The notes beneath the pieces are model-generated. The model was not told where the DNA came from and searched no databases. It was given only the letters and a program-made list of their open reading frames with translations. Of a DNA stretch of 41,533 nucleotides, positions 13,614 to 33,413 are shown in pieces (position 1 is the stretch's first letter; every line of letters begins with the position of its first letter). This DNA is from Candidatus Bathyarchaeota archaeon RBG_13_60_20 (GTDB lineage: Archaea; Thermoproteota; Bathyarchaeia; TCS64). Both the position numbers and the translations under genes were made by a program. Location of the stretch: the NCBI GenBank assembly GCA_001775965.1, contig MEZG01000068.1, positions 1-41,533 of the forward strand, written 5' to 3'.

Positions 13614-14453
13614 GTGAAGGTCAAGGCAGTCGGCATCAGGACGCGTTACTGGAGACCAGGGACCGATTACGTGGCGGAGATCGTGGGCAGGGTCAAGGGC
13701 CGCGTGGAGGACGGTGATGTGCTCGCCGTCAGCGAGAAGGCGGTGTCCACAGCCTCCGGCCTCATCGTGGACGAGGCGACGACGGAGCCCGGCATGGTCG
13801 CGCGGATTCTCGCGGGCCCTTGGACCAGGAGGATATGGGGCGGGCCCCTTGGGAGGATCACATGCCTCAAGGGGCAGACCCTCCTGAACCTGCGCAATTA
13901 TCCACTCCGCGAGGGGGCCGCCCACAAAGAGGTGGCTCTGCGCATCGCGGGCCTCCTTCAGTCGCTGCGCCACTACTCCGAGGGAGGCATAGACGCCAGC
14001 AACCTCCCCTACTCATACGTGAGCCTACCGCTACCCAACGCCGGCGCGGTGGCTGAGAGGATCAGGGACGCGGTGAAGGCCCGCACGGGCAGGGACGTCA
14101 CAGTGGTCATCGTCGACGGCGACACGACCTTCTCATGGAGGGGCCTTCACCTGGCCCCCCGCAAGGTACAGACGCCCGGCCTGGTGCACCTGGGGGGCTT
14201 CCTGGTCTTCGTCATGGGCAGAGCCCTCGGCCTAAGGCAGCGCCAGACCCCTGTGGCCGTATCGGGCGAACCTATGCCCCCGGACACGGCTCTGTGGCTG
14301 GCCAGGCTTCACCACAGGCTTTGCGGCCGCGGGGCCGGCAGGACCGTGTGGAGCATGTCGGCCAGGCTGGAGACCTCGCTGACGGGCGTAACATGGGAGA
14401 TGCTGGAATCTGTGAGGCACTACCCCGTGACCCTCATACGGTTCGTGGACTAG
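13614..14453 (+). CDS. CofE-like gamma-glutamyl ligase family protein
   Basis: A 279-residue protein resembling the F420-0:gamma-L-glutamate ligase family (PF01996): MKVKAVGIRTRYWRPGTDY at the start, then DGDVLAVSEKAVSTASGLIVDE near residue 34 and VVIVDGDTTFSWRG near 164. It differs from genuine CofE in a well-conserved-looking middle block (GGPLGRITCLKGQTLLNLR, EGGIDASNLPYSYVSLPLP). CofE-like enzymes add glutamate to F420 or, in paralogues, to folates; whether this one acts on F420 or on H4MPT is not decidable. The GTG start at 13614 follows cooC by 18 bp. Its TAG stop interlocks with that of the convergent DHPS-like gene on CTAG. Confidence 0.7.
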   Translation: MKVKAVGIRTRYWRPGTDYVAEIVGRVKGRVEDGDVLAVSEKAVSTASGLIVDEATTEPGMVARILAGPWTRRIWGGPLGRITCLKGQTLLNLRNYPLREGAAHKEVALRIAGLLQSLRHYSEGGIDASNLPYSYVSLPLPNAGAVAERIRDAVKARTGRDVTVVIVDGDTTFSWRGLHLAPRKVQTPGLVHLGGFLVFVMGRALGLRQRQTPVAVSGEPMPPDTALWLARLHHRLCGRGAGRTVWSMSARLETSLTGVTWEMLESVRHYPVTLIRFVD

Positions 14454-16018: not shown

Positions 16019-16972
16019 TCAACCCTCGCGGATGACTGCGCCCACGTTGTCGGCGGCCGCGACGAATGCTTCGCCCCGCCCGTCCTTGTTGAGGAACCGT
16101 TCGAGGGACGCTGCAAGCCTCCCCGCCTGGGCCCGTCCTTCGGCCAGCCCGTAGAGAGCCGGCCCCCATGAGCTCTGGCCAGCGCCAAGGGCCCCCTCCG
16201 CCAGGAGGTAGTTCACCCCCGCCTCGATCCCGGGGTGGCTGTAGACGCCCCCCTGGACCTTGGCCCAGTACGAGCCGAACATAGTGTCCAGCTTGGTCAT
16301 GGCGTCCCCGAACCTCTCTATGTCAGGCTCTATGATGGACGGGATCATCTGGAGGAGCACCAGCCTAGCGACGTCGGCGACGACCTCGGCCGGCGGCGGC
16401 TCCAAGGCCCTGAATGCGGCCTTCTCCTGCTCGCCGCTGACCCCCCTCTTGATGTCCGGGATGCCTATAACGAACAGCCAGTCGTCAGGCACCCTGTGCC
16501 TGAAGACCAGTGGCGGCACGGCATCCCTGCGCGTCAAGGCGTGGCCACCGTCTACAATAAAGCCTCCCCCAAGGAAGGCGTGGACCCCTACCCCTGAGAC
16601 TCTGCTGCGGCCGAAGCGGACGGCGATCTCCTCCGGCTCTAGGCTCAGGTCGTGTAATCGTGCCAGGGCGGTGCCCAGGGCCATGACCAGCTGGGTGCCT
16701 GAGCCGAAGCCCGTGTGCTCGGGTATGTCCTCCACGATCTCCACGTCCACGCCAGAATCGACGCCGCCGTCCCTCAGGAGGGTCTCGACGATGTTCGCGG
16801 CCCTGTCCGACCTGGCGCCCCTGATCCTCGTCTCGCCGCTGTCACTGACCTTCACTGTGAGCCGCGGCCGATCCACGGCGACCCCCACGCTCCCGTGGAT
16901 CCTGCCCAGGTCGCCCCTCATGTCCACTATACCGAACTGCAGCCTCGACGGGGTGGTTATGCTGATCTCTAC
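16019..16972 (-). CDS. Beta-ribofuranosylaminobenzene 5'-phosphate (RFAP) synthase
   Basis: Catalyses the first committed step of H4MPT synthesis, condensing 4-hydroxybenzoate (or 4-aminobenzoate) with PRPP. It is a GHMP-superfamily protein of about 317 residues: TPSRLQFGIVDMRGDLGRIHG at the N-terminus and EHTGFGSGTQLVMALGTALA near residue 90, then GRSRVSGVGVHAFLGGGFIVDGG. The track starts at GTG 17071, adding 33 residues that overlap DUF447 and look non-homologous. The family N-terminus would fall at GTA 16972, preceded by GGAGG at good spacing; there is no ATG, GTG or TTG between. The start is therefore uncertain (see findings). Confidence 0.87.
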   Translation of the reverse strand, partial: VEISITTPSRLQFGIVDMRGDLGRIHGSVGVAVDRPRLTVKVSDSGETRIRGARSDRAANIVETLLRDGGVDSGVDVEIVEDIPEHTGFGSGTQLVMALGTALARLHDLSLEPEEIAVRFGRSRVSGVGVHAFLGGGFIVDGGHALTRRDAVPPLVFRHRVPDDWLFVIGIPDIKRGVSGEQEKAAFRALEPPPAEVVADVARLVLLQMIPSIIEPDIERFGDAMTKLDTMFGSYWAKVQGGVYSHPGIEAGVNYLLAEGALGAGQSSWGPALYGLAEGRAQAGRLAASLERFLNKDGRGEAFVAAADNVGAVIREG

Positions 16973-17616
16973 GCCGTTACCCTCCAGCTTGGTATCATGT
17001 CTTCTAGCTTGTCCACTACCGCGTGCTCGGGGGAGCCCTGTGGCGATACCCGCCTCACGGTCGCCGTGCACTCATCTATCTTCCGGATCAGCGCCTCGGC
17101 TTCCCCTCTCCGCCCCTGCTCGCTGAACGCCTTGACTCTCGTCGCGTGTATCACCGCCTCAACGGCCTGGTTCCTCCCCCTGCTGAAGACCGTGGGGTAC
17201 GCCTCGCCCACCGTTATCTTGACTGGCGTGGCGGTGAATAAACCCCTTTCGCCGAGTGTGGATGACTCCTGTTTCACCTCGACGATGATCGTTGAATCCG
17301 CCCCCATCAGCCTCATGTCGGGCTCCACGTGCGGCTGGTCCTCGATCTCGTCCTTAAAGGCCGTGGCTAGGAAGAGCAGGGGATCGAGGGTGGTGTTGAT
17401 GGAAGCCCTGCCTCCTCTCATCAGGTTCGCGTAGGTGGCGCTGGTCCTGTAGGGGCTCAGTCCGAGGTGCCGCCCCATCAGTCTGACGCCCATGGGCGCG
17501 GCGTTGAACGAGCCGTCGCTGTTCACCGTGACCAGTATTGTCTCCACTACGGCGCCCTGGGTGAAGCCCATCTTCGCAAGCGTCCCGATCAGATCAGACA
17601 TATCTGTGGAGGCCAA
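16969..17616 (-). CDS. DUF447 family protein (FMN-binding split-barrel type)
   Basis: A 215-residue archaeal protein of family DUF447 (PF04289), which also occurs beside H4MPT genes in methylotrophic bacteria. ETILVTVNSDGSFNAAPMGV near residue 25 and the beta-rich remainder resemble split-barrel flavin-binding proteins; the C-terminal helical part includes RNQAVEAVIHATRVKAF. It is probably an enzyme or cofactor-binding protein of H4MPT synthesis, by context only. ATG 17601 is an alternative start; a TATA-like TTTACTGTAT (17628-17637 on the minus strand) lies about 31 bp before 17601. Its TAG stop overlaps the presumed RFAP synthase start. Confidence 0.82.
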   Translation of the reverse strand: MASTDMSDLIGTLAKMGFTQGAVVETILVTVNSDGSFNAAPMGVRLMGRHLGLSPYRTSATYANLMRGGRASINTTLDPLLFLATAFKDEIEDQPHVEPDMRLMGADSTIIVEVKQESSTLGERGLFTATPVKITVGEAYPTVFSRGRNQAVEAVIHATRVKAFSEQGRRGEAEALIRKIDECTATVRRVSPQGSPEHAVVDKLEDMIPSWRVTA

Positions 17617-17655: not shown

Positions 17656-18660
17656 TTATGGGGGTTCTAGGGGGATCATGTAGTCGCGGGCTCCACCTAG
17701 AACGACTCTGAGGCGACCATCCGGGCCCCTGACCTTCTCCAGTGTACCCCGTATCTCCACCCTCTCCCCCGCCAAGGCCTGCTCAGTGAACTTGCCCCTG
17801 TAGCTCACGGCCTCGCTCACCTGCCCCAGCCCCTCGGGTTCAACGGGTTCAAGCATGCCTAACTGGTAGCTGCAAGGCGTGAATATGGAGCACGAGGAGT
17901 CCGTGACTCTGGCTCTGAAGACGGCCTCGCCGACGGGGGCTGAGGGGGCGGCATCGGGCTCAGGCCTCAGGAGCCGTATGAAGTAGTCTCTGCCGTCGAC
18001 CCTGCCGTGCAGCACCTTCCTGACCTCTACCTCCGCCAGGGCGTCCAGATCGACGCCCGCCTTGCCCCATCTGCGTAACAGGACCTCCTTGACCGTCTCA
18101 GCGTCGTACGGCTGAACCCAGCCCTTCCTGCTTCTCAGCAGCCTCAGCGCCTTGTAGACTGAGCGGCCTTCGTCCGCCCCGTACACGTTGAGGTCCACGT
18201 CGGAGCCTTCCCGGTTGAGGCCAATGAGAAGCGACCCCGATACGCCGAAGCTCCTTGTGGGCACGCCGCTTCCATTGCTTAGGGCCTCGACCAGCCTCTT
18301 GACCGTCGCCTCAAGGCCGGGCTGAGGCTTCTGGAGAACATGCCCAAGCCTCTCCCTGGGGTCGTACATCCTCTCGATGCGTTTAAGGGGCACGGTCTGC
18401 AGGGTGAGGCCGAGCATAGGCACGTGGTTCAGGTATTGGGGGTGGCGGAGCCTCAGGTACTCGGTGGTCTCGTCGGGGTCGCTCACCCTCCTGTACCTGA
18501 CGCCGTCGAGGACCCTATCGCCCTCCTCATCTGGGATGTAGCGGAGGTAGGCGATGACCATGCTGTCTGGGTGTCTGCTCCCCTTCACAGCGAAGAAGAG
18601 GCCCTCGGCGGTCCTGATGTAGTCGCCCTCGTTGTACTCCTGGAAGCTGATCATACCCAA
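17656..18660 (-). CDS. Archaeal predicted nucleotidyltransferase (COG1665-like), copy 1
   Basis: A 334-residue three-part protein. The N-terminal domain (YNEGDYIRTAEGLFFAV to about residue 105) is of unknown fold. A pol-beta-type nucleotidyltransferase core follows, with GVSGSLLIGL and the metal-binding pair SDVDLNVYG near residue 150. The C-terminal segment GERVEIRGTLEKVRGPDGR looks like a small beta-barrel. It is paralogous throughout to the gene at 28203-29219 in the mch-fwd operon. The nucleotide and acceptor are unknown; the placing among H4MPT synthesis genes suggests cofactor assembly. Start is TTG 18660 or ATG 18654; a TATATAT element lies about 29 bp upstream of the former. Confidence 0.8.
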   Translation of the reverse strand: MGMISFQEYNEGDYIRTAEGLFFAVKGSRHPDSMVIAYLRYIPDEEGDRVLDGVRYRRVSDPDETTEYLRLRHPQYLNHVPMLGLTLQTVPLKRIERMYDPRERLGHVLQKPQPGLEATVKRLVEALSNGSGVPTRSFGVSGSLLIGLNREGSDVDLNVYGADEGRSVYKALRLLRSRKGWVQPYDAETVKEVLLRRWGKAGVDLDALAEVEVRKVLHGRVDGRDYFIRLLRPEPDAAPSAPVGEAVFRARVTDSSCSIFTPCSYQLGMLEPVEPEGLGQVSEAVSYRGKFTEQALAGERVEIRGTLEKVRGPDGRLRVVLGGARDYMIPLEPP

Positions 18661-18692
18661 GTATTAACTTGTGACTGGCGGGCCCTATATAT
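18661..18692. promoter_or_regulatory. 32-bp shared divergent promoter (nucleotidyltransferase / CitG-like)
   Basis: GTATTAACTT (18661-18670) is centred about 27 bp before the rightward TTG at 18693, and CTATATATTT (18685-18694), read on the minus strand as AAATATATAG, is centred about 29 bp before the leftward TTG at 18660. The TATA box of each gene abuts or enters the start of the other, so both messages are presumably leaderless. Confidence 0.6.
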
Positions 18693-19655
18693 TTGAGCAG
18701 CGTGGTGCAGCCATTGGGCGGTGTAGGCAGCTTGGTGGGTGGGTGCGCGTCCCTTGCGGCCCTCCTGGAGGTGTCGGCGTACCCTAAGCCTGGGAACGTG
18801 CACCGCCTTAGGGACTTCGATGGGACGCGCTACGAGCACTTCCTCGCGGGAGGAGTCTCCCTGGCCCCGTGGATGGCCGCGCTCGCCGACGAAGGCGCCC
18901 GCGTCAAGGCACAGGGCGGCGGCTGGGAAGGCATCCGACTCGGAGAGCACATACTTGGGGCGGTGGAAGACATGACGCGGTGGCAGAAGGGCGGGAACAC
19001 CCACCTGGGCGTCATCCTTCTCTTCGCGCCCGTGGCCGCTGCGGCAGGCGCCTCGCTGGAGAACGGCAGAGCGGATCCCAAGAGGCTCAGGGAGAACCTG
19101 TTGGACGCCGTGGCCGCCGCGACGCCCGGCGACGCAGCCGACATCTACAGGGCCATAGGCGCGGCTATGACCAGGGAGAACTTGGGCTCCGTTGAAAGGC
19201 TCGACGTCTCGGACTCCTCGTCCATAGACTACATACTGAGGCGGGGTGTCACGCCCCTTGAGATATTCCAGGAATGCTCGGGGCGGGACGCGATATGCGG
19301 AGAGTGGGCCACGGGCTTCAGTGTGACGTTCGAGGAGGGGTACACCTACCTGGCGGATCGGCTGCTTTCCGGCTCTGTTAACGACTCTGTAGTGGACACG
19401 TTCCTGCGCATCCTCTCAAGGCACCCTGACTCGCTGATACGGAGGAAGAGGGGGGAGGAGGCCGCGAGAGCTGTGAGCGAGAAGGCCCAGAGGGTTCTGG
19501 ACAGCGGGGGCGCCTCAAGCGACGAGGGGCGAAGGCTGCTGCTCGAATTGGACGACGAGCTTCAGGCTGGAGGGGGGGAGCTGAACCCTGGCACCTCCGC
19601 CGACCTTACGGCGTCCTCACTGTTCGTGAACCTGCTAGGCGGGTGGAGGCCCTAG
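18693..19655 (+). CDS. CitG-like triphosphoribosyl-dephospho-CoA synthase family protein
   Basis: A 320-residue helical protein of the CitG/MdcB family. The signatures are ALLEVSAYPKPGNVHR near residue 24, KGGNTHLGVILLFAPVA near 100, and LNPGTSADLTASSLFV at the end. Classical CitG joins an ATP-derived ribose phosphate to dephospho-CoA by an alpha-glycosidic bond for citrate or malonate decarboxylase. No such decarboxylase is encoded here, and related genes occur with H4MPT or C1 clusters, so an acyl-carrier role is unlikely. TTG 18693 is the start, after a TATA box. Its TAG stop interlocks with that of the CBS gene on CTAG. Confidence 0.85.
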   Translation: MSSVVQPLGGVGSLVGGCASLAALLEVSAYPKPGNVHRLRDFDGTRYEHFLAGGVSLAPWMAALADEGARVKAQGGGWEGIRLGEHILGAVEDMTRWQKGGNTHLGVILLFAPVAAAAGASLENGRADPKRLRENLLDAVAAATPGDAADIYRAIGAAMTRENLGSVERLDVSDSSSIDYILRRGVTPLEIFQECSGRDAICGEWATGFSVTFEEGYTYLADRLLSGSVNDSVVDTFLRILSRHPDSLIRRKRGEEAARAVSEKAQRVLDSGGASSDEGRRLLLELDDELQAGGGELNPGTSADLTASSLFVNLLGGWRP

Positions 19656-20083
19656 GACGAGTACTGGCGCAGGTAGTGGGGGTACGTCTCGCAGAACTCC
19701 CTGATGCCCTCCTCGGTCACAAGGCCCCTCACGGTCCTGTGCTCCTGGACCCCGAGGCAGCCGATGCCGTACTTCCTCATCACGCCTAGGGCGTCGTTCA
19801 GGGGCGTGTCTATGTCCACAGTGATGAGGGGCACCGATACCAGGTCCTTCACGAGGAGGCTGGCCTTGTCCTCGGTCTCGATGAGCCACCTCATGATGTC
19901 CTTGTTCGTTATTAGGCCGATGGGGTCCTGGTCCTCGTAGACGATGAGCGCCTCGTAGTCCTCCCCCATGAGCTTGCGGGTCACCTCGATGAGCCTATCC
20001 TCGGCCCTTGCCATTGGGGGAGCCTTGTTCATGAGGACCCTGCAGGGGAGGCCGCAGAACTCGGAGTTAAGCTGGATGCCCAT
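19652..20083 (-). CDS. CBS-domain pair protein
   Basis: A 143-residue cytoplasmic protein consisting almost only of two CBS motifs (about residues 20-75 and 82-135), ending the motifs with PIGLITNKDIMRWLIE and VRGLVTEEGIREFCE. Such pairs bind adenine nucleotides or S-adenosylmethionine and act as energy sensors for partners. The N-terminus carries two cysteines (CGLPC) that are not part of the domain. ATG 20083 has AGGAAGGT immediately upstream. It is divergent from the pyruvate-kinase-C-like gene; the partner is unknown. Confidence 0.88.
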   Translation of the reverse strand: MGIQLNSEFCGLPCRVLMNKAPPMARAEDRLIEVTRKLMGEDYEALIVYEDQDPIGLITNKDIMRWLIETEDKASLLVKDLVSVPLITVDIDTPLNDALGVMRKYGIGCLGVQEHRTVRGLVTEEGIREFCETYPHYLRQYSS

Positions 20084-20123
20084 ACCTTCCTCAGCAAATA
20101 CTATACTTACACGTGTTTATTTA

Positions 20124-20185
20124 GTTTTCAATCATGAAAACCCGTCAAATTCTCGCAAGCTGAATTTGATGTCAGGCTCACCTGA
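20124..20185. repeat. Three successive inverted repeats between divergent genes
   Basis: GTTTTCA-ATCA-TGAAAAC (20124-20141), TCAAATTC-9 nt-GAATTTGA (20145-20169) and TCAGG-CTCA-CCTGA (20172-20185) lie in tandem in the 144-bp gap between the CBS gene and the next gene. The last is followed by six As and a TATA-like GTTATAG. They could be operators or fold into an untranslated RNA. Confidence 0.5.
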
Positions 20186-20227
20186 AAAAAGTTATAGCCT
20201 CAGATCCCTCACCTCTACTGATGGCTA

Positions 20228-20734
20228 TTGGACTCAGGTAGCGGCATCATGTTCGTGGGAAAGAAGACGAAGCCAAACGCGGTCTACGAGGCGATAAGGG
20301 CACATCTACCGGCTGACAGCGGCAAGGTGGTCATAGCCAGCCACAAGGGGAAGTCGGCGCTGAAGCTGGCCGAGACCCTCGGGAAGCAGGCCCAAGTGGT
20401 GAGCGTCACCGAGTTCACCTACGACGACGACACCAAGAAGGAGATGAAGAAGCTGAACGTCGTCCCCGTGGAGAAGGCCGAGCTGCCCGTACAGGACGAC
20501 AGGGGGATGAGGGAGACCCTGCTCATGTTCGGGTCGGGTGTGAAGGCAGCCCTGGAGGTGGCCACAGTCGCGTCGGGGAAGAAGCTGGTGAAAGGCGAGT
20601 TCATAGTCGTCGCGGGGGAGAAGGAGGGCTTCGACACCGTGCTGCTCCTGGACACGGAGCACCCCCAGAAGGAGCAGATATCTGACCCGCTGAAGCACAT
20701 CAAGGTGAAGAGGTTCATCGCTCTCCCTGAGTAG
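20228..20734 (+). CDS. Pyruvate kinase C-terminal-like domain protein
   Basis: A stand-alone alpha/beta domain of 168 residues resembling the C-terminal (allosteric) domain of pyruvate kinase, found as a free protein in many archaea. Visible elements are NAVYEAIRAHLPADSGKVVIASHKGKSA, VVSVTEFTYDDDT and the C-terminal DTVLLLDTEHPQKEQI. It lacks catalytic pyruvate kinase domains and its role is unknown; small-molecule sensing is possible. TTG 20228 is the track start; ATG 20249 (MFVGKKTKPN) is equally plausible and nearer the conserved part. A TATA-like GTTATAG at 20191-20197 serves it. Confidence 0.72.
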   Translation: MDSGSGIMFVGKKTKPNAVYEAIRAHLPADSGKVVIASHKGKSALKLAETLGKQAQVVSVTEFTYDDDTKKEMKKLNVVPVEKAELPVQDDRGMRETLLMFGSGVKAALEVATVASGKKLVKGEFIVVAGEKEGFDTVLLLDTEHPQKEQISDPLKHIKVKRFIALPE

Positions 20735-20742
20735 CCGCAAGG

Positions 20743-20757
20743 CGCAGATGTTTTATC
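20743..20757 (+). promoter_or_regulatory. Promoter element CGCAGATGTTTTA before HTH gene
   Basis: CGCAGATGTTTT at 20743-20754 continues into a TATA-like TTTTATC. The same 12-mer occurs at 21163-21174 before mch, at a similar distance from the start codon (45 bp to TTG 20788 here, 49 bp to GTG 21212 there). It looks like a BRE-plus-TATA core shared by the two genes. Confidence 0.45.
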
Positions 20758-20769
20758 GGCTCTCTTCAG

Positions 20770-21081
20770 TTGTATAGTTGGCTTATCTTGTCAGACGTAA
20801 GCAAAACCGTTTCAGGCTCCATGGAGGAGACCAAGGAGAGGCACAGGAGGTACCTTAGGGCCATCAATAGCCCCGTCAGGAGGGGAATCCTACGCGCGCT
20901 GAAGGAGGGACACGCAACGGCGGAGGCTCTGGTAAAGGCTACTGGCCTGGACGGCAAGACCCTGGGCTGGCACATGAAGCTCCTCGAGTACGGGTACTGC
21001 GTCGAGGCTAGGAGCACCGCCGAGGGAGAGGTCTACGTCTTGACCAGGGAGGGTGAAGTCGTGGACTTCATGGACAGGTAG
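20770..21081 (+). CDS. ArsR-like winged-helix transcription regulator
   Basis: A DNA-binding protein of at most 103 residues. RYLRAINSPVRRGILRALKEG is the first helix pair of an ArsR-type winged helix, ATAEALVKATGLDGKTLGWHMKLLEYGYC is the helix-turn-helix, and EVYVLTREGEVVDF is the wing. No cysteine metal-sensing motif is evident. TTG 20770 is the track start; TTG 20788 fits the TATA box better and ATG 20821 would still keep the domain. It lies just before the mch-fwd operon, shares a promoter 12-mer with it, and a palindrome lies between, so it may regulate that operon (inference). Confidence 0.82.
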   Translation: MYSWLILSDVSKTVSGSMEETKERHRRYLRAINSPVRRGILRALKEGHATAEALVKATGLDGKTLGWHMKLLEYGYCVEARSTAEGEVYVLTREGEVVDFMDR

Positions 21082-21109
21082 TCACCGAGTAGCGAGCCTC
21101 AGACTGATT

Positions 21110-21127
21110 ACATAACACGCATTATGT
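21110..21127. promoter_or_regulatory. Palindrome ACATAA-N6-TTATGT upstream of mch
   Basis: A perfect inverted repeat with 6-bp arms and a 6-bp spacer, about 40 bp upstream of the probable mch TATA box. Size and symmetry fit a dimeric winged-helix regulator site; the regulator encoded immediately upstream is the obvious candidate. Confidence 0.4.
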
Positions 21128-21162
21128 GCTACAATTAACATAAAATCTGCTACTTATGACAC

Positions 21163-21176
21163 CGCAGATGTTTTTA
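21163..21176 (+). promoter_or_regulatory. Core promoter of the mch-fwd operon
   Basis: CGCAGATGTTTTTA ends in a TATA-like TTTTTA about 38 bp before the GTG at 21212, predicting a short leader of roughly ten bases. It shares its first 12 bases with the promoter of the upstream HTH gene. Confidence 0.5.
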
Positions 21177-21211
21177 GGTGCGGTAAAGCATCTCTGATAG
21201 GTGTCCTAATC

Positions 21212-22159
21212 GTGCTGAGCGTCAACAGGCTGGCATACGAGCTTGTGTCGGAACTTGTCAAGAGGAAGGAGTACTACAGGGTAGAGGTCGATAAGCTGCC
21301 GTCGGGGGCCACCGTGGTAGACACGGGGGTGGAGGCCCACGGCGGATACGAGGCGGGCCTCATGGTCACCCGCATAGCCATGGGAGGGGCCGGGAGCGCG
21401 CACCTCTCGTATGCAGACTACGGCGGGGTCGGGCTGCCCTCGGTGGTGGTCTCCACGGACTGCCCGGCTGTAGCTCTCTTCGGGGCCCAGCTTGCTGGGT
21501 GGAAGATAAAGCCTGAGGGGTACTCGGCGGACAGCTCGGGCCCGGCCCGCGCGCTGGCCCTGAAGCCCAAGGAGGTGTACCAGAAGATAGGCTACAGGGA
21601 CGAGTCGGACGTGGCCGTCATCCTGCTGGAGACCGAGGAGAAGCCCCCGGACTCGGCGGCCCACTACATAGCCGAGAGGTGCAACGTGAAGCCCGAGAAC
21701 GTGTACATGGTCCTCACCTCCACCAGGTCCATGGCGGGGATGGTGCAGATATCGGGCAGGATAGTCGAGACAGGGCTCTTCAGGCTCGACGTGCTAGGCC
21801 TGGACCCCAAGAAGGTGCTTTACGGGGCGGGGTACGCGCCTATCATGCCGGTCCACGTAGACGCGGGGAAGGCCATGGGCAGGGCCGAGGATGCCCTGAC
21901 TTACGGTGGGGTCACCACGTACTTGGTGGATGAGGCCGAGGACAAGCTCAGGGAGGTCGCCGAGAAGGCGCCCAGCAGCAACTGCAAGGACTACGGCAAG
22001 ACCAGCTACGAAATCTACAAGGCCGTGGACTTCGACTTCACCAGGATCGACCCGGCCCTCTTCGCCCCCGCGGCCATATCCCTGACCTCTGCCCAGACCG
22101 GGGCGACCTTCACCTACGGCAAGGTCAACGACCGTATAATCTTACATTCATTGAAGTAG
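21212..22159 (+). CDS. mch: Methenyl-tetrahydromethanopterin cyclohydrolase
   Basis: Interconverts N5-formyl-H4MPT and N5,N10-methenyl-H4MPT. The 315-residue length is normal. Family segments include MLSVNRLAYELVSEL at the start, VVDTGVEAHGGYEAGL near residue 35, VVVSTDCPAVALFGAQLAGW, LTSTRSMAGMVQISGRIVET and YGAGYAPIMPVHVDAGKAMGR. The GTG start at 21212 heads an operon with the fwd and ftr genes; fwdD begins 4 bp after its stop. It is the clearest marker that the organism uses H4MPT as the C1 carrier. Confidence 0.96.
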   Translation: MLSVNRLAYELVSELVKRKEYYRVEVDKLPSGATVVDTGVEAHGGYEAGLMVTRIAMGGAGSAHLSYADYGGVGLPSVVVSTDCPAVALFGAQLAGWKIKPEGYSADSSGPARALALKPKEVYQKIGYRDESDVAVILLETEEKPPDSAAHYIAERCNVKPENVYMVLTSTRSMAGMVQISGRIVETGLFRLDVLGLDPKKVLYGAGYAPIMPVHVDAGKAMGRAEDALTYGGVTTYLVDEAEDKLREVAEKAPSSNCKDYGKTSYEIYKAVDFDFTRIDPALFAPAAISLTSAQTGATFTYGKVNDRIILHSLK

Positions 22160-22163
22160 ATCG

Positions 22164-22571
22164 GTGTCTGAGATGAACGGGATCGAGGTTACACTGATTT
22201 CGGGGAGGACGGCGAGGCAGGGCATAGGCCTGGAAGAGGGCAAGACGTCCCAGGGCTACATCAAGAGCGTTAATGAGGTTAGCCTGTGCCCAGAGGACGC
22301 AGCGAGCCTGGGCCTCAGCGGGGACGAACCTGTGACGGTGGCCACGGAGCACGGCAGCGTGGTGGCGCACTGGAGGGTGGACAAAGGGCTGGCCCGGGGA
22401 ACCGCGTTCTTCCCCTACGGGCCGTGGGCCAACCAGGTGTACGCGTCGTCCACGGACGGCACCGGCATGCCCCAGTTCAAGGGGATAAGGGCCACCCTAT
22501 CCCCAGCCGCGGGCGGCAAGGTGCCGTCACTCCAGGAGATCGTGGAGTCCATGAGGAGAGCGGAGCATTGA
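22164..22571 (+). CDS. fwdD: Formylmethanofuran dehydrogenase subunit D
   Basis: A 135-residue molybdopterin-dinucleotide-binding subunit, homologous to the C-terminal domain of molybdopterin oxidoreductases. EVTLISGRTARQGIGLEEGK, SLCPEDAASLGLSGDEPVTV and AFFPYGPWANQVYASSTDGTGMP match the family. It pairs with FwdB to hold the tungsten or molybdenum cofactor. Start GTG 22164 or ATG 22173. Its TGA stop overlaps the fwdB TTG start by 4 bp. Confidence 0.94.
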   Translation: MSEMNGIEVTLISGRTARQGIGLEEGKTSQGYIKSVNEVSLCPEDAASLGLSGDEPVTVATEHGSVVAHWRVDKGLARGTAFFPYGPWANQVYASSTDGTGMPQFKGIRATLSPAAGGKVPSLQEIVESMRRAEH

Positions 22572-23854
22572 AGCACGAGGACGTGGTCTGCCCCTTCTGC
22601 GGGTGCCTGTGCGACGACCTGGAGGTGACCGTGGAGGACGGCCACATCGTGGGCGTCAAGAACGCGTGCGGCATATCCCGGTCCAAGTTCATGAGCCACG
22701 GCCTCAACCGGGTCTCCGCCCCCACAGTGGAGGGGAAGGAGGCCTCGCTCGAAGAGGCCGTGAGGGAGTCGGTGGGTATACTCTCAGGAGCCAGGAGGCC
22801 CCTGGTTTACGGCCTCAGCTCCACGGAGTGCGGCGCCATCAGCAAGGCGGTCGAGCTGGCGGAGGCCACGGGCGGCGTCCTGGACAACACCTCGTCCGTG
22901 TGCCATGGCCCCACGATACTGGCCCTCCAGCAGGTGGGCGAGAGCAAGGCGACCCTGGGCGAGATCAGGAACAGGGCCGACCTCATCATCTTCTGGGGGA
23001 GCAACCCCACGGAGGCCCACCTGCGCCACATCACAAGGTACAGCGGGACGGCTAAGGGCATGTACGTGCCTGAGGGCAGGAAGGGCCGCAGGATCATAGT
23101 GGTCGACGTCAGGGAGACGGGCACCTCGAAGATGGCCGATCAGTTCATCAAGGTGGAGCCCAACGGGGACTTCGAGTTGCTCGAGGCGCTGAGGGCTACG
23201 GTTAGGGGCGTGGCGCTGCGGGCGGAGGCCGTGGCGGGGGTGCCCATGGACCAGGTCAGGGCGCTGGCCGAGGTCATGAAGGGGGCCAGGTTCGGGGTCG
23301 TGTTCTTCGGGCTGGGGCTCACCCAGAGCGAGGGCAGGCACATGAACATAGACGCGGCCGTCGGCCTGGTGGCCGAGCTGAACAGGCACACCAAGTTCCT
23401 GCTCACCCCCATGAGGGGCCACTACAACGTGGCGGGGGCCAATGCGGTGACCACCTGGCAGACGGGGTACCCCTACGCGGTGGATTTTAGCCGTGGCTAC
23501 CCCAGGTACAACCCGGGGGAGTACACCTCGGTGGACATGCTGGCCAGGGGCGAGGCCGACGCGGCCCTGGTGCTGGCCTCGGACCCGGCGTCCACGTTCC
23601 CCGTGGACGCTGCCAGGGGCTTGGCCAAGATACCGGTGATCACCCTTGAGCAGAAGATCACTCCCACATCCATGCTGAGCAGGGTGGTGATACCGGTGGC
23701 CACCGCGGGCATAGAGGCCGAGGGAACGGCCTACAGGATGGACGGGGTCCCCATAAGGCTGAGGAAGCTGGTGGAGCCCACTGAGGGGGTCCACTCGGAC
23801 GAGGAGGTGCTCGGGATGATCCTTGAGGGGCTTAAGGGAGGCGCCGAGAAGTGA
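22568..23854 (+). CDS. fwdB: Formylmethanofuran dehydrogenase subunit B (W/Mo catalytic)
   Basis: The 428-residue formate-dehydrogenase-like catalytic subunit that reduces CO2 to formate for FwdA. The [4Fe-4S] motif is CPFCGCLC (Cys8, 11, 15) with a further Cys at about 34, and the metal ligand is cysteine (NTSSVCHGP, about Cys112), not selenocysteine. Further family segments are LIIFWGSNPTEAH and LLTPMRGHYNVAGANAV. The track ORF begins at 22286, but its first 94 residues are a shadow of fwdD; TTG 22568, within a TTGA overlap, is the start. Tungsten or molybdenum use cannot be decided from sequence. Confidence 0.96.
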   Translation: MKHEDVVCPFCGCLCDDLEVTVEDGHIVGVKNACGISRSKFMSHGLNRVSAPTVEGKEASLEEAVRESVGILSGARRPLVYGLSSTECGAISKAVELAEATGGVLDNTSSVCHGPTILALQQVGESKATLGEIRNRADLIIFWGSNPTEAHLRHITRYSGTAKGMYVPEGRKGRRIIVVDVRETGTSKMADQFIKVEPNGDFELLEALRATVRGVALRAEAVAGVPMDQVRALAEVMKGARFGVVFFGLGLTQSEGRHMNIDAAVGLVAELNRHTKFLLTPMRGHYNVAGANAVTTWQTGYPYAVDFSRGYPRYNPGEYTSVDMLARGEADAALVLASDPASTFPVDAARGLAKIPVITLEQKITPTSMLSRVVIPVATAGIEAEGTAYRMDGVPIRLRKLVEPTEGVHSDEEVLGMILEGLKGGAEK

Positions 23855-25554
23855 AGGAGCTTGCGATCAGGAACGGCTACGTCTTCGACCCTCTGAACGG
23901 CGTCGACGGCGAGAAGATGGACATCCTCCTCAGCGGGGGCAGGGTCGTTGAGAAGGTGAAGCGCGGCGCCGAGGAGATTGACGCCTCGGGGATGGCGGTG
24001 ATGCCCGGCGGCGTGGACCTCCACAGCCACATCGCGGGCAGCAAGATCAACATCGGGCGCCTCATGAGACCCGAGGACCACAGGAGGGACCAGGTGCCCA
24101 AGGGCAGGGTCACCCGGAGCGGCGTGGGCTACAGCTGCCCCAGCACCTTCGTCACCGGGTACAGGTACGCACAGATGGGTTACACAACGGTCATGGAGGC
24201 GGCCATGCCGCCCATAACAGCCAGGCACGTCCACGAGGAGCTGGCCGACACCCCCATCATAGACAAGGGCGCCTTCACCCTCATGGGCAACAACTACTTC
24301 ACCCTCAAGTACGTCCGCGACGGCGACATGGAGAAGCTGAAGGCCTTTGTCGCCTGGCTGCTCCGGGCCACCCGCGGCTACGCCGTCAAGATTGTGAACC
24401 CGGGCGGCGTGGAGAACTGGAAGTGGGGCCGCAACGTCCACGGCCTGGACGGCAACGTGGAGGACTACGGCATCACGCCTAGGCAGATCATATCCAGCCT
24501 GGCAAGGGTGAACGAGGAGCTGGGCCTGCCCCACACCATCCACCTCCACTGCAACAACCTGGGGGTGCCCGGCAATTACCAGACCACCATCGACACCATG
24601 GACGTGGCCAAGACGATTAAACCCAGGGACGAGAGGAAGACGACCATACACGTCGTCCACTGCCAGTTCAACGCCCTGGCGGGCAACAACTGGATGAACG
24701 TCAGGTCGGGAGCCCCCAAGATAGCCAGGTACGTGAATGGGAACCCCCACGTGACCTTGGACCTGGGCCAGGTCATCTTCGGGGACACCACAACAATGAC
24801 TGGGGACGGCCCCTGGCAGTTCAACCTCTGGAACATGACGGGCAACAAGTGGGTCAACAGCGACGTGGAGATGGAGGCGGGGGCCGGCGTAGTCCCCTAC
24901 ACGTTCAAACCAAACAACCCGGCCAACAGCGTCCAGTGGGGCATAGGCATCGAGCTGGCCCTCCTGGTGAAGGACCCATGGAGGGTCTATATGACCACAG
25001 ACCACCCCAACGGGGGTCCCTTCACCCACTACCCCGAGGTCATCGCGTGGCTGATGAGCAGGAAGGCCAGGACCGACGCAATGAACGCCATGAACAAGGC
25101 GGTGATGAAGCGCACCGGCCTCATAGACAATTACAGGGAGTACACGTTCAGCGAGATGGCCATAGCCACCAGGGCCGGCACGGCAAGGGCGCTTGGCCTG
25201 GAGGGCAAGGGCCACCTGGGGCAGGGGGCCGACGCGGACGCCGCCGTTTACAGGGTCAACCCCACCCAATGGCGCCCCAGCCAGTATAAGGAGCTGGAGA
25301 AGGCTTTCAGCAGGGCGGCCTACACAGTCAAGGCTGGCGAGGTCGTGGTCAAGGACGGCGAGGTCGTGGCGACCCCCACGGGGGCCACCCACTGGGTGAA
25401 CGCCAAGGTACCCGAGGACCTCGAGAAAGAGTTCATAAAGGACTTCGAGGCCGATTTCCGGAAGTACTACTCCGTCAGCCTGCGCAACTACCCAGTGGAG
25501 GACGCGTACCTGCCGGCTCAGAGGGTCCACGCGGCGGGAGGTGCCTCGCCGTGA
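23851..25554 (+). CDS. fwdA: Formylmethanofuran dehydrogenase subunit A
   Basis: The 567-residue amidohydrolase subunit that condenses formate with methanofuran at a binuclear zinc site. The metal-binding HSH is at residues 58-60 (GGVDLHSHIAGSK), a likely carboxylated lysine lies in RGYAVKIVNPGG, and further histidines in HTIHLHCNNLGVPGNYQTT and IHVVHCQFNAL. MTTDHPNGGPFTHYPEVIAW matches the later catalytic Asp region. The GTG start overlaps the fwdB stop by 4 bp. The reversed-strand 599-aa ORF across this gene is a shadow. Confidence 0.97.
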   Translation: MKELAIRNGYVFDPLNGVDGEKMDILLSGGRVVEKVKRGAEEIDASGMAVMPGGVDLHSHIAGSKINIGRLMRPEDHRRDQVPKGRVTRSGVGYSCPSTFVTGYRYAQMGYTTVMEAAMPPITARHVHEELADTPIIDKGAFTLMGNNYFTLKYVRDGDMEKLKAFVAWLLRATRGYAVKIVNPGGVENWKWGRNVHGLDGNVEDYGITPRQIISSLARVNEELGLPHTIHLHCNNLGVPGNYQTTIDTMDVAKTIKPRDERKTTIHVVHCQFNALAGNNWMNVRSGAPKIARYVNGNPHVTLDLGQVIFGDTTTMTGDGPWQFNLWNMTGNKWVNSDVEMEAGAGVVPYTFKPNNPANSVQWGIGIELALLVKDPWRVYMTTDHPNGGPFTHYPEVIAWLMSRKARTDAMNAMNKAVMKRTGLIDNYREYTFSEMAIATRAGTARALGLEGKGHLGQGADADAAVYRVNPTQWRPSQYKELEKAFSRAAYTVKAGEVVVKDGEVVATPTGATHWVNAKVPEDLEKEFIKDFEADFRKYYSVSLRNYPVEDAYLPAQRVHAAGGASP

Positions 25555-26477
25555 GCTTCAAGCACAACGGGGTGGACGTCGAGGACACCTTCGCGGAGGG
25601 CTTCGGCATGTGGGGTAGCCGCATCATCATAACGGCCGCGTCCGAGAGGTGGGCCACCACAGCCGCCGGCTCTATGACGGGGTTCGCCACCAGTGTCATC
25701 GCATGCGACTGCGAGGCCGGCGTGGAGTCTTCGGTAGCGCCGGACAGTACCCCCGATGGGCGCCCCGGCGTCGCCGTCATGGTTTACGGGTTCAGCAAGG
25801 GCAAGCTGTCCGAGAGCATGTTGAGCCGGATGGGCCAGTGTGTCCTCACATGCCCCAGCACGGCCGTGTTCAATGGACTGCCGGAGGAGGAGGCCGACGA
25901 GATGCTAGACATCGGGAAGAGCCTCAGGTTCTTCGGGGACGGGTACCAGGTCAAGATGAGGATGGGGGACGGCTGGCACCAGAGGCGCCGCTTCTGGAGG
26001 ATACCCGTCATGGAGGGCGAGTTCCTGGTGGAGGAGAAGATGGGGGCCAAGAAAGCGGTGGCCGGGGGCAACTTCCTGGTGATGGGAGAGACACAGGACG
26101 CGGTCCTGAGGGCAGCTGAGGCGTCCATAGACGCCATCCACACGGTGCCCGGCGTGGTAACGCCGTTCCCCGGCGGCCTCTGCAGGAGCGGCAGCAAGGT
26201 GGGCTCCACATACAAGTTCCTGAAGGCGGCCACCAACACGCCCTTCTGCCCTACCATAAAGAACAGTGTCAAGGGCAGCAAGGTGCCGTCGGGCGCCAAC
26301 TCGGTCATCGAGGTGGTGATCAACGGTCTCAACGAGGCGTCTGTGAAGCGGGCCATGGGGGTGGGCGTGGACGCCGCCACCAGGGTTCCGGGTGTCACAT
26401 GGATCACGGCGGTCAACTTCGACGGCAAGCTGGGGAAGTTCAAGATGGGGCTGAGGGACAGCCTGGAGGCGATCTGA
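25551..26477 (+). CDS. ftr: Formylmethanofuran--tetrahydromethanopterin N-formyltransferase
   Basis: Moves the formyl group from formylmethanofuran to N5 of H4MPT. It is 308 residues against about 297 in methanogens. Characteristic stretches are DVEDTFAEGFGMWGSRIIIT at the start, AVMVYGFSKGKLSESMLSR, GQCVLTCPSTAVFNGL and GGLCRSGSKVGSTYKFL. The GTG start overlaps the fwdA stop (GTGA). Its placement between fwdA and fwdC makes the operon a contiguous CO2-to-methenyl module. Confidence 0.97.
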   Translation: MSFKHNGVDVEDTFAEGFGMWGSRIIITAASERWATTAAGSMTGFATSVIACDCEAGVESSVAPDSTPDGRPGVAVMVYGFSKGKLSESMLSRMGQCVLTCPSTAVFNGLPEEEADEMLDIGKSLRFFGDGYQVKMRMGDGWHQRRRFWRIPVMEGEFLVEEKMGAKKAVAGGNFLVMGETQDAVLRAAEASIDAIHTVPGVVTPFPGGLCRSGSKVGSTYKFLKAATNTPFCPTIKNSVKGSKVPSGANSVIEVVINGLNEASVKRAMGVGVDAATRVPGVTWITAVNFDGKLGKFKMGLRDSLEAI

Positions 26478-26478
26478 T

Positions 26479-27327
26479 ATGGATAAGCTGGTGCTAACGC
26501 CTAGGGGATTCAGCAGAGTACCCTTGGAGGCGGAGGTGATAACGCCAGACGCCTTCGCCGGCAAGTCCGTAAAGGAGATTAGGGCCCTGAGGGTCCACTA
26601 CGGCAACAGGGAGGTGGAGATGAGCGAGTATATCCATGTCCAGGGTAAGGTGGCCGACGCCCCGGTCGACCAGCTCATCGTCGTCGACGGGGACGCAAGG
26701 CACATCAAGTATATCGGCAGGGGGATGACCGCGGGTCGAATAGTGGTCCAGGGCGACGCCGGTATGCACACGGGCTCCCAGATGAGCGGCGGGGACATAA
26801 CTGTGGCGGGAGACGCAGGCGACTGGACCGGCGCCGAGATGAGGGGCGGCCTCCTCAGGGTGCTGGGCGACGCCGGGAACCTCCTAGGCGCCGCGTACAG
26901 GGGCAGCAGCGAGGGCATGACCGGCGGATGCATAATTGTCAACGGCAGCGCCGGTTCCGAGGTCGGCAGCTTCATGAGGAGAGGCATGATGGTGGTTGAG
27001 GGCGCCACTGGTCCCTTCACAGGCGTACATATGAACGGCGGCGAGATATTCGTCTTCGGCCCCCTGGGCAGGCGCGCCGGGGCCCAGGCCAAGGGCAACG
27101 GCGGCTTCATAGCGGCCCTCGGCGGCGCCCGGGAGGTGTTACCCACCTACGTCTACGAGGCCACCTACGCCCCCGGCTTCATGACGCTCTACATGAGGCA
27201 GCTGGCAGAGAACCTGGGCGTCAAACACGCCGCCAGGTACATCGGGGAGCCCCTCAGGAGGTACAGGGGCGACATGGCCATCGGCGGTAGCGCCGAGATA
27301 CTGGTCGCCGAGAAGGGGGCCCCTTGA
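26479..27327 (+). CDS. fwdC: Formylmethanofuran dehydrogenase subunit C
   Basis: A 282-residue subunit folded as a right-handed beta-helix like the C-terminal domain of glutamate synthase. Glycine-rich turns recur about every 19 residues (GRIVVQGDAGMHTGSQMSGG, DITVAGDAGDWTGAEMRGG, CIIVNGSAGSEVGSFMRRG). It helps join FwdA and FwdBD in the complex. ATG 26479 follows ftr by 1 bp. Genes for the polyferredoxin subunits FwdF/G are not in this operon. Confidence 0.96.
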   Translation: MDKLVLTPRGFSRVPLEAEVITPDAFAGKSVKEIRALRVHYGNREVEMSEYIHVQGKVADAPVDQLIVVDGDARHIKYIGRGMTAGRIVVQGDAGMHTGSQMSGGDITVAGDAGDWTGAEMRGGLLRVLGDAGNLLGAAYRGSSEGMTGGCIIVNGSAGSEVGSFMRRGMMVVEGATGPFTGVHMNGGEIFVFGPLGRRAGAQAKGNGGFIAALGGAREVLPTYVYEATYAPGFMTLYMRQLAENLGVKHAARYIGEPLRRYRGDMAIGGSAEILVAEKGAP

Positions 27328-28196
27328 GGGTAGGCATCATCGCCTCCGACCGCAGGGAGTGGCACGTGGGCCTGCTCTTAAGGGAGCTCAGGGCGAGGGG
27401 AGCCGAGGCTTACCTCCTCCCTGTCACCAGCTTCCGCGCATCCGTAGGCCGCGAGCCGAGGCTCACGGTGAAGGGCTACGGCGTGGACGACTACGACGCG
27501 GTCATCGTGCGCCGAGTACCAGGCGGCTCCGCCGAGCAGGTGTTCTACAGGATGGACGCCCTCCACAGGCTGGAGGACACGGGGGTCCTGGTGGTGAACC
27601 CTGCCCTGAGCATCGAGAGGGCCGTGGACAAGTACTACACCTCGGCGCTGCTTGAGGACGCCGGGATCAGGACGCCCCGCACCGTGGTCACCGAGAGCTT
27701 CGCAGAGGCCATGGTGGCCTACGAGGAGCTGGGAGGCGACGTGGTGGTTAAGCCCCTCTTCGGCAGCCTCGGCATGGGGATAACCAGGGTCTCCGACCCC
27801 GACCTTGCCCACAGGGTGTTCAGGGCCCTGGAGATGACCAGAAGCGTCTACTACGTCCAGGAGTTCATCAGGCACCCCGGCGTCGACCACAGGGTATTCG
27901 TCATCGGGGGCTCTATCGCGGCGTCCATGCGCCGCGTGGCCAGGGGCTGGAAGACCAACATCTCGGGTGGCGGCAGAGCCGAGCCCTATACGCCCAGCGA
28001 AGAGGTCGCCGAGGCGAGCCTCAGGGCCACCGAGAAGCTGGGCCTCATCTACTCAGGCGTCGACATCATAGTCTCGGAGGAGGGGGAGGCGTACGTCGTT
28101 GAGCTCAACAGCACTCCGGGATGGGAGGGCCTTCAATCTGTTACGGAAGTGGACATCGCGGTGCGCCTCGTCGACCACGTGCTGTCACTGATGTGA
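27324..28196 (+). CDS. RimK-type ATP-grasp ligase, probable H4MPT:glutamate ligase (MptN-like)
   Basis: A 290-residue ATP-grasp enzyme. The core has DKYYTSALLEDAGIRTPRT near residue 95, the lysine segment GGDVVVKPLFGSLGMGITRV, the central-domain glutamate QEFIRHPGVDHRVFVIGG, and the Mg-binding YVVELNSTPGWEGLQSV near the C-terminus. MptN (MJ0620) adds alpha-glutamate to H4MPT and CofF adds it to F420; position behind fwdC points to MptN-type activity. The TTG start overlaps the fwdC stop (TTGA). Confidence 0.83.
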   Translation: MRVGIIASDRREWHVGLLLRELRARGAEAYLLPVTSFRASVGREPRLTVKGYGVDDYDAVIVRRVPGGSAEQVFYRMDALHRLEDTGVLVVNPALSIERAVDKYYTSALLEDAGIRTPRTVVTESFAEAMVAYEELGGDVVVKPLFGSLGMGITRVSDPDLAHRVFRALEMTRSVYYVQEFIRHPGVDHRVFVIGGSIAASMRRVARGWKTNISGGGRAEPYTPSEEVAEASLRATEKLGLIYSGVDIIVSEEGEAYVVELNSTPGWEGLQSVTEVDIAVRLVDHVLSLM

Positions 28197-28202
28197 GGGA
28201 CC

Positions 28203-29219
28203 GTGTTGAAGCCGAAGGACAGGGACTTCGTGGAGACCGTCGAGGGGCACCTGTTCTGCGTGGTGGGGTACCTGCACCCCCCGGAAGGCTATACGGCGTA
28301 CCTCAAGTACGTGCCGGCCCCGGTGGGGAAGTGGGGCCGAGGCGAGGCCAGGTACACCAGGACCCTTCCCTTCTACCACGTCTCCCAGGTGGAGAACACG
28401 TACAGTTACCTCAGGGAGAACTACCCCAAGTACCTGATCGACTGTCCCGTACGCGGCTTCACGGTCTCCTATGTGCCCAGGCCCAGCGTCAGGAGGTACT
28501 ACAGGCCCCGGAAGGTACTCAGGGAGATCATGGCTAGGGGCGCAGTGGACCCCCTGGAGGAGAAGCTGCTGAGGCTGGCGGGGCTTCTCACGGATGAGTC
28601 GGGCGTAAGGGGCCTAGGCGTGACGGGCTCCATATTGACTGGCATCCACAACCCCGACTTCTCCGACATTGACCTCACAGTCTACGGTGCCGGCCCGTCT
28701 AGGAGGCTCAAGGACGCCGTGCTGAGGTTGAGGAACGAAGGCGACAGGGTGCAGCCTCCAACGCGTCAAGAGATAGAGTCGTGGTGCCGCGAGAGGATCA
28801 GCAAGTTCCCCCTGACTGTGGATGAGCTGAGACGGGTCGCCGAGACGAGGTGGAACTACGGGTTCTACACGGGCACCTACTTCTCGGTGCACCCCACCAG
28901 GGCGGACAGGGAGATCACCGAGGCGTACGGGGATAACACGTACCGCAGGGTCGGAGAGGTCAGCGGCTCGGCGACGGTGGCCGATGCCTCCGAGTCCATG
29001 TTCCTGCCCGCGTTCTACCGTGTCGAGGACGCCGCGCTGCCCGGCGGCGTCGAGGCGGAGCGCCTGGTCTCCTACGAGGGGCTCTACGGCGGCGTATTCG
29101 CTGAGGGGGATCGGGTAGAGTTCAGAGGCGCCTTGGAAAAGGTGGAGGGAAAGAACCCGGGCCACCAGGTTGTGGTCGGGGGGGCCGGCTCCCCAGCCGG
29201 CTACATAAGGTGGGCCTAG
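28203..29219 (+). CDS. Archaeal predicted nucleotidyltransferase (COG1665-like), copy 2
   Basis: A 338-residue paralogue of the 17656-18660 gene, with the same order: N-terminal domain (DFVETVEGHLFCVVGYLHPP), pol-beta-type core with GVTGSILTGI and the metal pair SDIDLTVYG near residue 155, and a C-terminal segment (GDRVEFRGALEKVEGKNPG). The GTG start at 28203 lies 6 bp after the MptN-like gene, making it the last gene of the mch-fwd operon. Function unknown; linkage to H4MPT genes in two places argues against a general DNA or RNA role. Its TAG stop interlocks with that of convergent cdhE on CTAG. Confidence 0.8.
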   Translation: MLKPKDRDFVETVEGHLFCVVGYLHPPEGYTAYLKYVPAPVGKWGRGEARYTRTLPFYHVSQVENTYSYLRENYPKYLIDCPVRGFTVSYVPRPSVRRYYRPRKVLREIMARGAVDPLEEKLLRLAGLLTDESGVRGLGVTGSILTGIHNPDFSDIDLTVYGAGPSRRLKDAVLRLRNEGDRVQPPTRQEIESWCRERISKFPLTVDELRRVAETRWNYGFYTGTYFSVHPTRADREITEAYGDNTYRRVGEVSGSATVADASESMFLPAFYRVEDAALPGGVEAERLVSYEGLYGGVFAEGDRVEFRGALEKVEGKNPGHQVVVGGAGSPAGYIRWA

Positions 29220-30631: not shown

Positions 30632-30635
30632 AGCT

Positions 30636-31964: not shown

Positions 31965-31969
31965 GCGGG

Positions 31970-33412: not shown

Positions 33413-33413
33413 T

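Follow-up and report, generated by a model that had tools for sequence, protein, structure and literature searches.

Paired pol-beta-type nucleotidyltransferases of Bathyarchaeota and other archaea as candidate enzymes of methanopterin biosynthesis, in company with a CitG-like protein

The DNA analyzed here, called the window in the following, is a stretch of 41,533 nucleotides (contig MEZG01000068.1; contig C68 of genome G000) and part of a metagenome-assembled genome (MAG) of Candidatus Bathyarchaeota archaeon RBG_13_60_20. It encodes two paralogous nucleotidyltransferases, A and B, whose family is linked to methanopterin genes far above chance, a link that recurs in loci of many archaeal phyla. 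Methanopterin is a one-carbon carrier in methanogenesis and in the archaeal Wood-Ljungdahl pathway, and its dephospho form is used in methylotrophs; tetrahydromethanopterin (H4MPT) contains an alpha-ribosyl 5-phosphate which is phosphodiester-linked to 2-hydroxyglutarate. It is very probable that A and B function in the biosynthesis of a methanopterin-type carrier. More specifically, and with a probability that we put at roughly 0.4, the ribose phosphate of methanopterin would be derived from ATP by a CitG-type enzyme, and the hydroxyglutaryl phosphodiester would be formed by A and B as a pair of pol-beta transferases with two catalytic carboxylates. The two genes and their active-site motifs are located as follows.

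28203..29219, plus strand: nucleotidyltransferase of clade A (P0001, 338 amino acids), last gene of the mch-fwd-ftr-mptN run
28626..28673, plus strand: active-site motif of A, G142-S143 ... S154-D155-I-D157
17656..18660, minus strand: nucleotidyltransferase of clade B (P0002, 334 amino acids), at the head of a run with DUF447, RFAP synthase and a dihydropteroate-synthase-like (DHPS-like) gene
18193..18237, minus strand: active-site motif of B, G142-S143 ... S153-D154-V-D156

Both open reading frames are real, with that of B lying on the minus strand, a point left unsaid in an earlier reading that was made from the sequence only; as the frame begins with LGMISF, B probably starts from the ATG at 18654. 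BLASTP aligns P0001 and P0002 over nearly their entire length (109 of 326 positions identical, 33%, E 2e-41), which confirms the common N-terminal domain, pol-beta core and C-terminal segment described before, and the core motifs quoted at that time are present, namely GVTGSILTGIHNPDFSDIDL in A and GVSGSLLIGLNREGSDVDL in B. The profiles of the two clades align over 346 columns (probability 100, E 6.5e-85). Searches of Pfam, NCBIfam, PADLOC and PDB sequences assigned neither A nor B to a specific family: the sole model matched, and this weakly, was NTP_transf_2 in Pfam (A 3.7e-05, B 0.0011), with no NCBIfam match and no convincing PDB match. A role in defense was dropped, PADLOC being negative apart from one weak match. 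Scans for repeats and for promoters and terminators around the two genes gave nothing of use, and no third copy of the family was found in the assembled part of this genome, which is 64% complete.

Clades, neighborhoods and phylogenetic profile

A family scan of 84,980 species genomes yielded 485 relatives, and the bearers among the best 80 of these 485, which were examined, are Bathyarchaeia, other Thermoproteota, Nitrososphaeria, Asgard lineages, Theionarchaea, and a few Chloroflexi and other bacterial MAGs. Of 138 near full-length sequences placed in a tree, 79 belong to clade A, 48 to clade B (support 0.998) and 10 to a distant clade C. Judged by their sequences, A and B are two old clades of a pol-beta nucleotidyltransferase family that has no curated model of its own. 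In most loci members of the two clades adjoin each other, be it in tandem, convergent or divergent, which is the usual arrangement in Thermoproteota and Asgard archaea, and a lone copy is listed in just 3 of 71 genomes with strong matches. Two Theionarchaea contain one A and one B each, placed apart, and in the genus of the window one member of the pair lies in the fwd cluster and the other in the RFAP synthase cluster, which is the reason why the sequence-only reading saw two separate loci.

Clustering of the neighbors in 80 loci plus the window showed that the following genes recur (number of loci in brackets): MptN-like (23), Ftr (19), CitG (19), FwdD (16), FwdB (16), FwdA (13), CofE (12), DHPS-like (12), FwdC (11), Mch (10), DmrX (10), DUF1464 (10), a FolT-like transporter of the energy-coupling factor (ECF) type (10), RFAP synthase (9), DUF447 (8), and MptA (8). 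These genes, which include biosynthetic ones and not just those for carrier-using enzymes, recur in Bathyarchaeia, other Thermoproteota, Asgard and Anaerolineae MAGs; examples are the orders RFAPS-DUF1464-DmrX-DHPS-MptA-B-A in a member of the Jordarchaeia (L065), DmrX-DHPS-A-DUF447-RFAPS in a Chloroflexi MAG (L047), and Ftr-Fwd-Mch-MptN-A-CitG in Vulcanisaeta (L101). The closest neighbor of A/B is CitG, at a median distance of 23 bp (19 loci).

Two side observations concern these loci. Vulcanisaeta sp. JCM 14467, a cultured member of the Thermoproteales (L101 and contig C12 of G100), contains an island of fwd, mch, mptN, A and citG; its mch was read in two pieces and is therefore frameshifted or mis-sequenced. 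A FolT-like ECF S component adjoins the A/B pair in L041, L042, L063, L066, L077, L078, L081, L082, L093, and L100, sometimes together with ECF ATPases, and possibly serves as an importer of a pterin or a methanopterin precursor.

The phylogenetic profile was based on 300 evenly drawn Thermoproteota genomes, many of them drafts, with tables transcribed by hand. The family was found in 149 of them, CitG in 135, Mch in 74 and RFAP synthase in 120. Family and CitG occurred together in 133 genomes, with 16 containing the family only, 2 CitG only and 149 neither (odds ratio 619, p 7e-64); in the same order, the counts were 113, 36, 7, and 144 for RFAP synthase (p 8e-41) and 66, 83, 8, and 143 for Mch (p 4e-16), all of these p-values taking no account of shared ancestry. 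The same picture emerges when taxonomic families are counted instead of genomes (36 with both, 2 with the nucleotidyltransferase only, 1 with CitG only). The profile against mch and RFAP synthase that had been suggested earlier bears out an association with both, but it is CitG that is tracked more tightly than Mch. Likewise, the expectation that the family should keep to archaea with H4MPT genes depends on the marker: 83 of the 149 bearers lack Mch, but when Mch, CitG, and RFAP synthase are taken together only 2 of 149 lack all of them. Mch was present in 40 of the 46 named-locus genomes bearing the family. As controls, Methanocaldococcus and Methanosarcina, checked for the named families, both contain CitG, RFAP synthase, and Mch. 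Among the matches listed, CitG lies at most 500 bp from the family gene in 35 of 106 genomes in which both were placed; in 41 of these 106 the two genes are on different contigs, so that adjacency cannot be judged.

The family and CitG also occur together in genomes without Mch. In five large, complete, Mch-less genomes with weak family matches (f38, probably Sulfolobales), CitG lies 17-95 bp from a single divergent transferase, and the one f38 genome that was checked has a DUF1464-NTase-CitG run with overlapping ends. Sulfolobus acidocaldarius, a named control, contains CitG and RFAP synthase and no Mch. Since the folate of Sulfolobus has the aminophenyl-polyol of methanopterin and yet is a different compound (PMC3261824), it might be that family and CitG act elsewhere on a methanopterin-type carrier, for example on another terminal group, with the duplication reflecting two end groups or one copy perhaps being non-catalytic. 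The coupling of CitG with a single divergent member in Mch-less genomes would fit this explanation. On the other hand, A adjoins MptN, whose substrate is hydroxyglutaryl, in the window and several other loci, and bacteria with dephospho-H4MPT keep CitG without the family, which is why we regard this explanation as unlikely.

The CitG-like protein and the proposed reactions

In the window, the CitG-like gene is divergent from B, with a gap of 32 bp between the frames.

18693..19655, plus strand: CitG-like protein of the ATP-dependent triphosphoribosyl transferase family (PF01874, E 1.1e-71)

The PF01874 match covers positions 3-283 of 284, and residues E26, K32-P33-G34, G100, N102, and D246 are common to E. 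coli CitG; the NPG..AD motif is nearly always present. Against the NCBIfam CitG/MdcB equivalog models, which stand for enzymes acting on dephospho-CoA, the protein reaches 55-64 bits, below their cut-offs of 272-282. CitG uses ATP to form 2'-(5''-triphosphoribosyl)-3'-dephospho-CoA, and CitX or MdcG then moves the group to a serine of the acyl carrier protein. In E. coli, citG overlaps citX, the gene of the transferase using the CitG product, and the corresponding MdcB/MdcG of malonate decarboxylase are described in PMC5534430. The full-length PF01874 match might suggest that the gene of the window serves citrate lyase or malonate decarboxylase as well and that its link to the family is accidental. 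This is practically out of the question and refuted for Thermoproteota, as the acyl carrier CitD/MdcC (PF06857) was found in 0 of 300 Thermoproteota genomes, with E. coli as positive control, and as bacterial plasmid relatives of CitG lie in H4MPT clusters. Given the absence of the carrier protein from all 300 genomes, CitG has another acceptor there.

The plasmid relatives just mentioned come from Azospirillum and Phyllobacterium (L146, L147, L151), where genes annotated as triphosphoribosyl-dephospho-CoA synthase, an annotation which is probably misleading, are situated within H4MPT methylotrophy clusters. It had been considered that bacterial plasmid matches of CitG represent MdcB beside MdcG; this was rejected, since the annotated ones lie in methylotrophy clusters instead. 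In the Azospirillum and Phyllobacterium clusters the CitG-like gene is found between a RimK-type ligase gene and fae, and no A/B relative was found there; this position ties CitG itself to H4MPT. The dephospho-H4MPT of M. extorquens is without the phosphate and the hydroxyglutarate (PMC8141765), and orf5 of Methylobacterium is the MptN-like ligase MyfB (PMC8141765), not the CitG-like gene. A comparable case is G150, a complete genome of 1.98 Mb from the Theionarchaea phylum, in which CitG, RFAP synthase, the DHPS-like protein, DUF1464, and MptA are present and A, B, Mch, and Ftr were not found. A putative clade C member in G150 was discarded, as the strong match fell in an additional domain of a fused frame and not in the transferase. 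CitG is therefore present and the family absent in cases where the carrier is known (M. extorquens type) or suspected to lack the hydroxyglutaryl phosphate, and the reverse, a family member with no CitG, is rare within Thermoproteota. Such a distribution would be expected if A/B acted after CitG, and among the steps of the pathway it is the formation of the hydroxyglutaryl phosphodiester that best matches the distribution of the family. As a side observation, a haloarchaeal CitG-like gene on a Natrinema plasmid (L149, 7980-9424) overlaps a DUF447 gene. Haloarchaea are said to use folate.

For the substrates, the reaction, the order of the steps and a possible heteromer, we infer the following scheme. 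In a first step, the CitG-like enzyme would move the 5-triphosphoribosyl group of ATP to the terminal hydroxyl of the pterin-aminophenyl-ribitol, with adenine being released and an alpha-ribosyl 5-triphosphate remaining. In a second step, the hydroxyl of (S)-2-hydroxyglutarate would attack the alpha-phosphate on A/B, so that pyrophosphate leaves and the phosphodiester is formed. Nucleophilic attack on an alpha-phosphate with pyrophosphate leaving is ordinary for a pol-beta active site, and MdcG does so with a serine. In a third step, MptN would join glutamate onto the hydroxyglutarate, the addition established for this ligase (PMC8141765). A and B would probably form a heteromer, as their pairing suggests, or act on consecutive substrates; in a heteromer, the active site of one might be completed by its partner, although the single copy in the f38 genomes indicates that a pair is not always required. 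The chances are about even that this mechanism, triphosphoribosylation of the pterin-ribitol by CitG and joining of the alpha-phosphate to 2-hydroxyglutarate by A/B, is correct.

The precedent is provided by CitG/CitX and MdcB/MdcG, in which a CitG-family triphosphoribosyl transferase is likewise coupled with, and often adjoins, a phosphodiester-forming transferase that acts on a hydroxyl. The companion gene of this kind (PF01874) is present in 133 of the 149 family-bearing Thermoproteota genomes, and MdcG is given as related to nucleotidyltransferases in the passage of PMC5534430 that cites Hoenke 2000. The proposed system would differ in that the acceptor of A/B is a small molecule, that pterin-ribitol replaces dephospho-CoA, that two paralogous transferases are found in place of one, and that the client carrier protein is absent. 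In this analogy A/B would work like CitX/MdcG; homology was compared for CitX alone and was not detectable there (see below), and neither the MdcG nor the CitX family is among the matches listed in Pfam scans of A/B members.

A second precedent is CofC/CofD of coenzyme F420, another archaeal coenzyme with a phosphodiester to a 2-hydroxy acid (lactate). CofC, which has another fold, activates the hydroxy acid with GTP. The sequence-only reading had proposed A and B as candidates for a CofC-like activation, in which 2-hydroxyglutarate or the ribosyl 5-phosphate is activated with a nucleoside triphosphate and another enzyme forms the phosphodiester. The part of this proposal which connects A/B to methanopterin biosynthesis holds across phyla, the GS and DxD motifs of nucleotidyltransferases are retained, and CofE-like genes are sometimes close. 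The activation by a nucleoside triphosphate is not supported: no CofD-like transferase is among the recurrent neighbors, CofC is not among the families listed in Pfam scans of A/B, and the tight link to CitG would stay unexplained. Moreover, an activation of the CofC type would be unnecessary because CitG chemistry already gives a triphosphate ester. We therefore consider the CofC-like route rather unlikely.

Active site, predicted fold and points against the proposed reaction

The GS motif and the subsequent DxD on the next strand, which are typical of the pol-beta superfamily, are present in A and B alike. In A (79 sequences) G142, S143, S154, and D155 are invariant and D157 is conserved in at least 90% (100/100/100/100/99% for G142/S143/S154/D155/D157 in the clade alignment); in B (47 sequences) all motif residues are invariant. 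This core is shared with NTP_transf_2/Polbeta (PF01909, PF18765), and PF01909 is matched by 71 of the 79 sequences of A and by 46 of the 47 sequences of B. These matches are weak and confined to the core, and A/B differ from that family by their own N-terminal domain, a C-terminal OB-fold and a replaced third carboxylate; as far as can be read from the alignments, they keep two of the three residues defining the superfamily. Structure prediction of both copies, as called for earlier, gave confident AlphaFold2 models with a predicted local distance difference test (pLDDT) score of 95.0 and a predicted template modeling (pTM) score of 0.92 for A, and of 90.9 and 0.88, respectively, for B. In both models, a beta domain of some 100 residues at the N-terminus is followed by a small pol-beta core and then by the OB-fold. 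The top 50 Foldseek matches in the PDB concern mainly the OB domain, with none below E 0.001, so that the overall architecture of these models appears to have no solved relative visible to this search.

Several observations weigh against the proposed reaction. The third carboxylate on the adjacent strand is absent (S228/H230 in A, Phe/Arg in B), so that a loss of catalytic carboxylates among homologues, a concern raised earlier, does apply to this position, both Asp of DxD being essentially invariant. A comparison of clade B with E. coli CitX by hhalign gave a probability of 0.1 and no detectable homology. White's work with cell extracts reportedly proposed phosphoribosyl pyrophosphate, and not ATP, as ribose donor. 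Eight Thermoproteota genomes, some of them draft MAGs, are positive for Mch and negative for the family, and 40 further ones with weak family matches have no Mch (36 contain CitG), from which it follows that the product, at least in these, is not standard H4MPT. Finally, distant homologues on Streptomyces plasmids have no methanopterin genes nearby, and the OB-domain matches are compatible with a nucleic-acid ligand.

The last two points might also speak for a modification of RNA or protein by A/B, for instance of a regulator or of an Fwd or Mch enzyme, with the genes being merely co-regulated with those of one-carbon metabolism. The OB-fold at the C-terminus is similar to SSB, RPA, and the LysRS anticodon domain, and pol-beta folds frequently act on RNA or protein. 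However, the family pairs with biosynthetic genes across phyla and tracks CitG even where Mch is absent, which makes such a role quite improbable.

In some Bathyarchaeia and Thermoprotei (L038-L042, L058-L062, L090, L100), a divergent member of clade C accompanies A/B as the third copy; clade C has Glu at both third-carboxylate positions (Glu-x-Glu). The relatives on Streptomyces plasmids (L152, L153, L154, L155, about 7-10 kb in each) are full-length, show 26-30% identity, cluster with clade C and, of the two third-carboxylate positions, retain Glu at the second; they are part of a repeated cassette with an APH-like kinase, in several cases also with a histidine phosphatase and a hypothetical protein.

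Gene neighborhood in the window and implications

The genes next to B and those leading into A are the following.

14450..16012, minus strand: dihydropteroate-synthase-like protein (TIGR00284, 372 bits against a cut-off of 257)
16019..17071, minus strand: RFAP synthase (TIGR00144, 182.6 bits against a cut-off of 113.5)
16969..17616, minus strand: DUF447 protein, F420/FMN-binding-like (PF04289, 1.7e-21)
21212..22159, plus strand: Mch, methenyl-H4MPT cyclohydrolase (TIGR03120, over cut-off)
22286..23854, plus strand: FwdB, formylmethanofuran dehydrogenase subunit B (TIGR03129, over cut-off)
23851..25554, plus strand: FwdA (TIGR03121, over cut-off)
25551..26477, plus strand: Ftr, formylmethanofuran:H4MPT formyltransferase (TIGR03119, over cut-off)
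26479..27327, plus strand: FwdC (TIGR03122, over cut-off)
27324..28196, plus strand: MptN-like ATP-grasp ligase (NF040720, 6.1e-79, 265 bits, below the equivalog cut-off of 350)

The scores agree with the placement of B beside DUF447, RFAP synthase and the CitG-like gene given in the sequence-only reading. RFAP synthase is the first committed enzyme of methanopterin arylamine synthesis; its match starts at residue 37, so that the true start is probably near 16966. The position of A at the end of the mch-fwd run, behind an MptN-like ligase, was equally confirmed: mch, fwdB, fwdA, ftr, fwdC, and the MptN-like gene, several of them with overlapping ends, lead into A, and NF040720 is the best match of the ligase, which also exceeds the cut-off of the RimK family model TIGR00768. 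The genes of carbon monoxide dehydrogenase/acetyl-CoA synthase come after A on the opposite strand (cluster 29216-36304, minus). Also in the window, 10109-13595 (plus) encodes a RACo-like corrinoid activator and, behind it, two CbiA/CooC-like ATPases, 13614-14453 (plus) a divergent F420_ligase (CofE-like) protein, convergent with the DHPS-like gene and without NCBIfam match at 1e-20, and 22164-22571 (plus) a frame of 135 amino acids between mch and fwdB, where related loci have FwdD.

According to Kaster et al. (2011), about seven methanopterin proteins were still unknown, and the non-pterin part required nine steps or more (PMC3087415). The present analysis names concrete genes for two unassigned bonds, the ribosylation and the hydroxyglutaryl phosphodiester, and proposes their chemistry by a precise precedent. 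It would also assign a role to the CitG-like genes found in archaea and methylotrophs and labelled in databases as citrate lyase accessory enzymes, and it predicts which organisms have the complete, the dephospho or an otherwise modified carrier. If the proposal is true, the prosthetic-group logic of CitG/CitX would predate citrate lyase, reach beyond it and be part of the building of an ancient one-carbon carrier.

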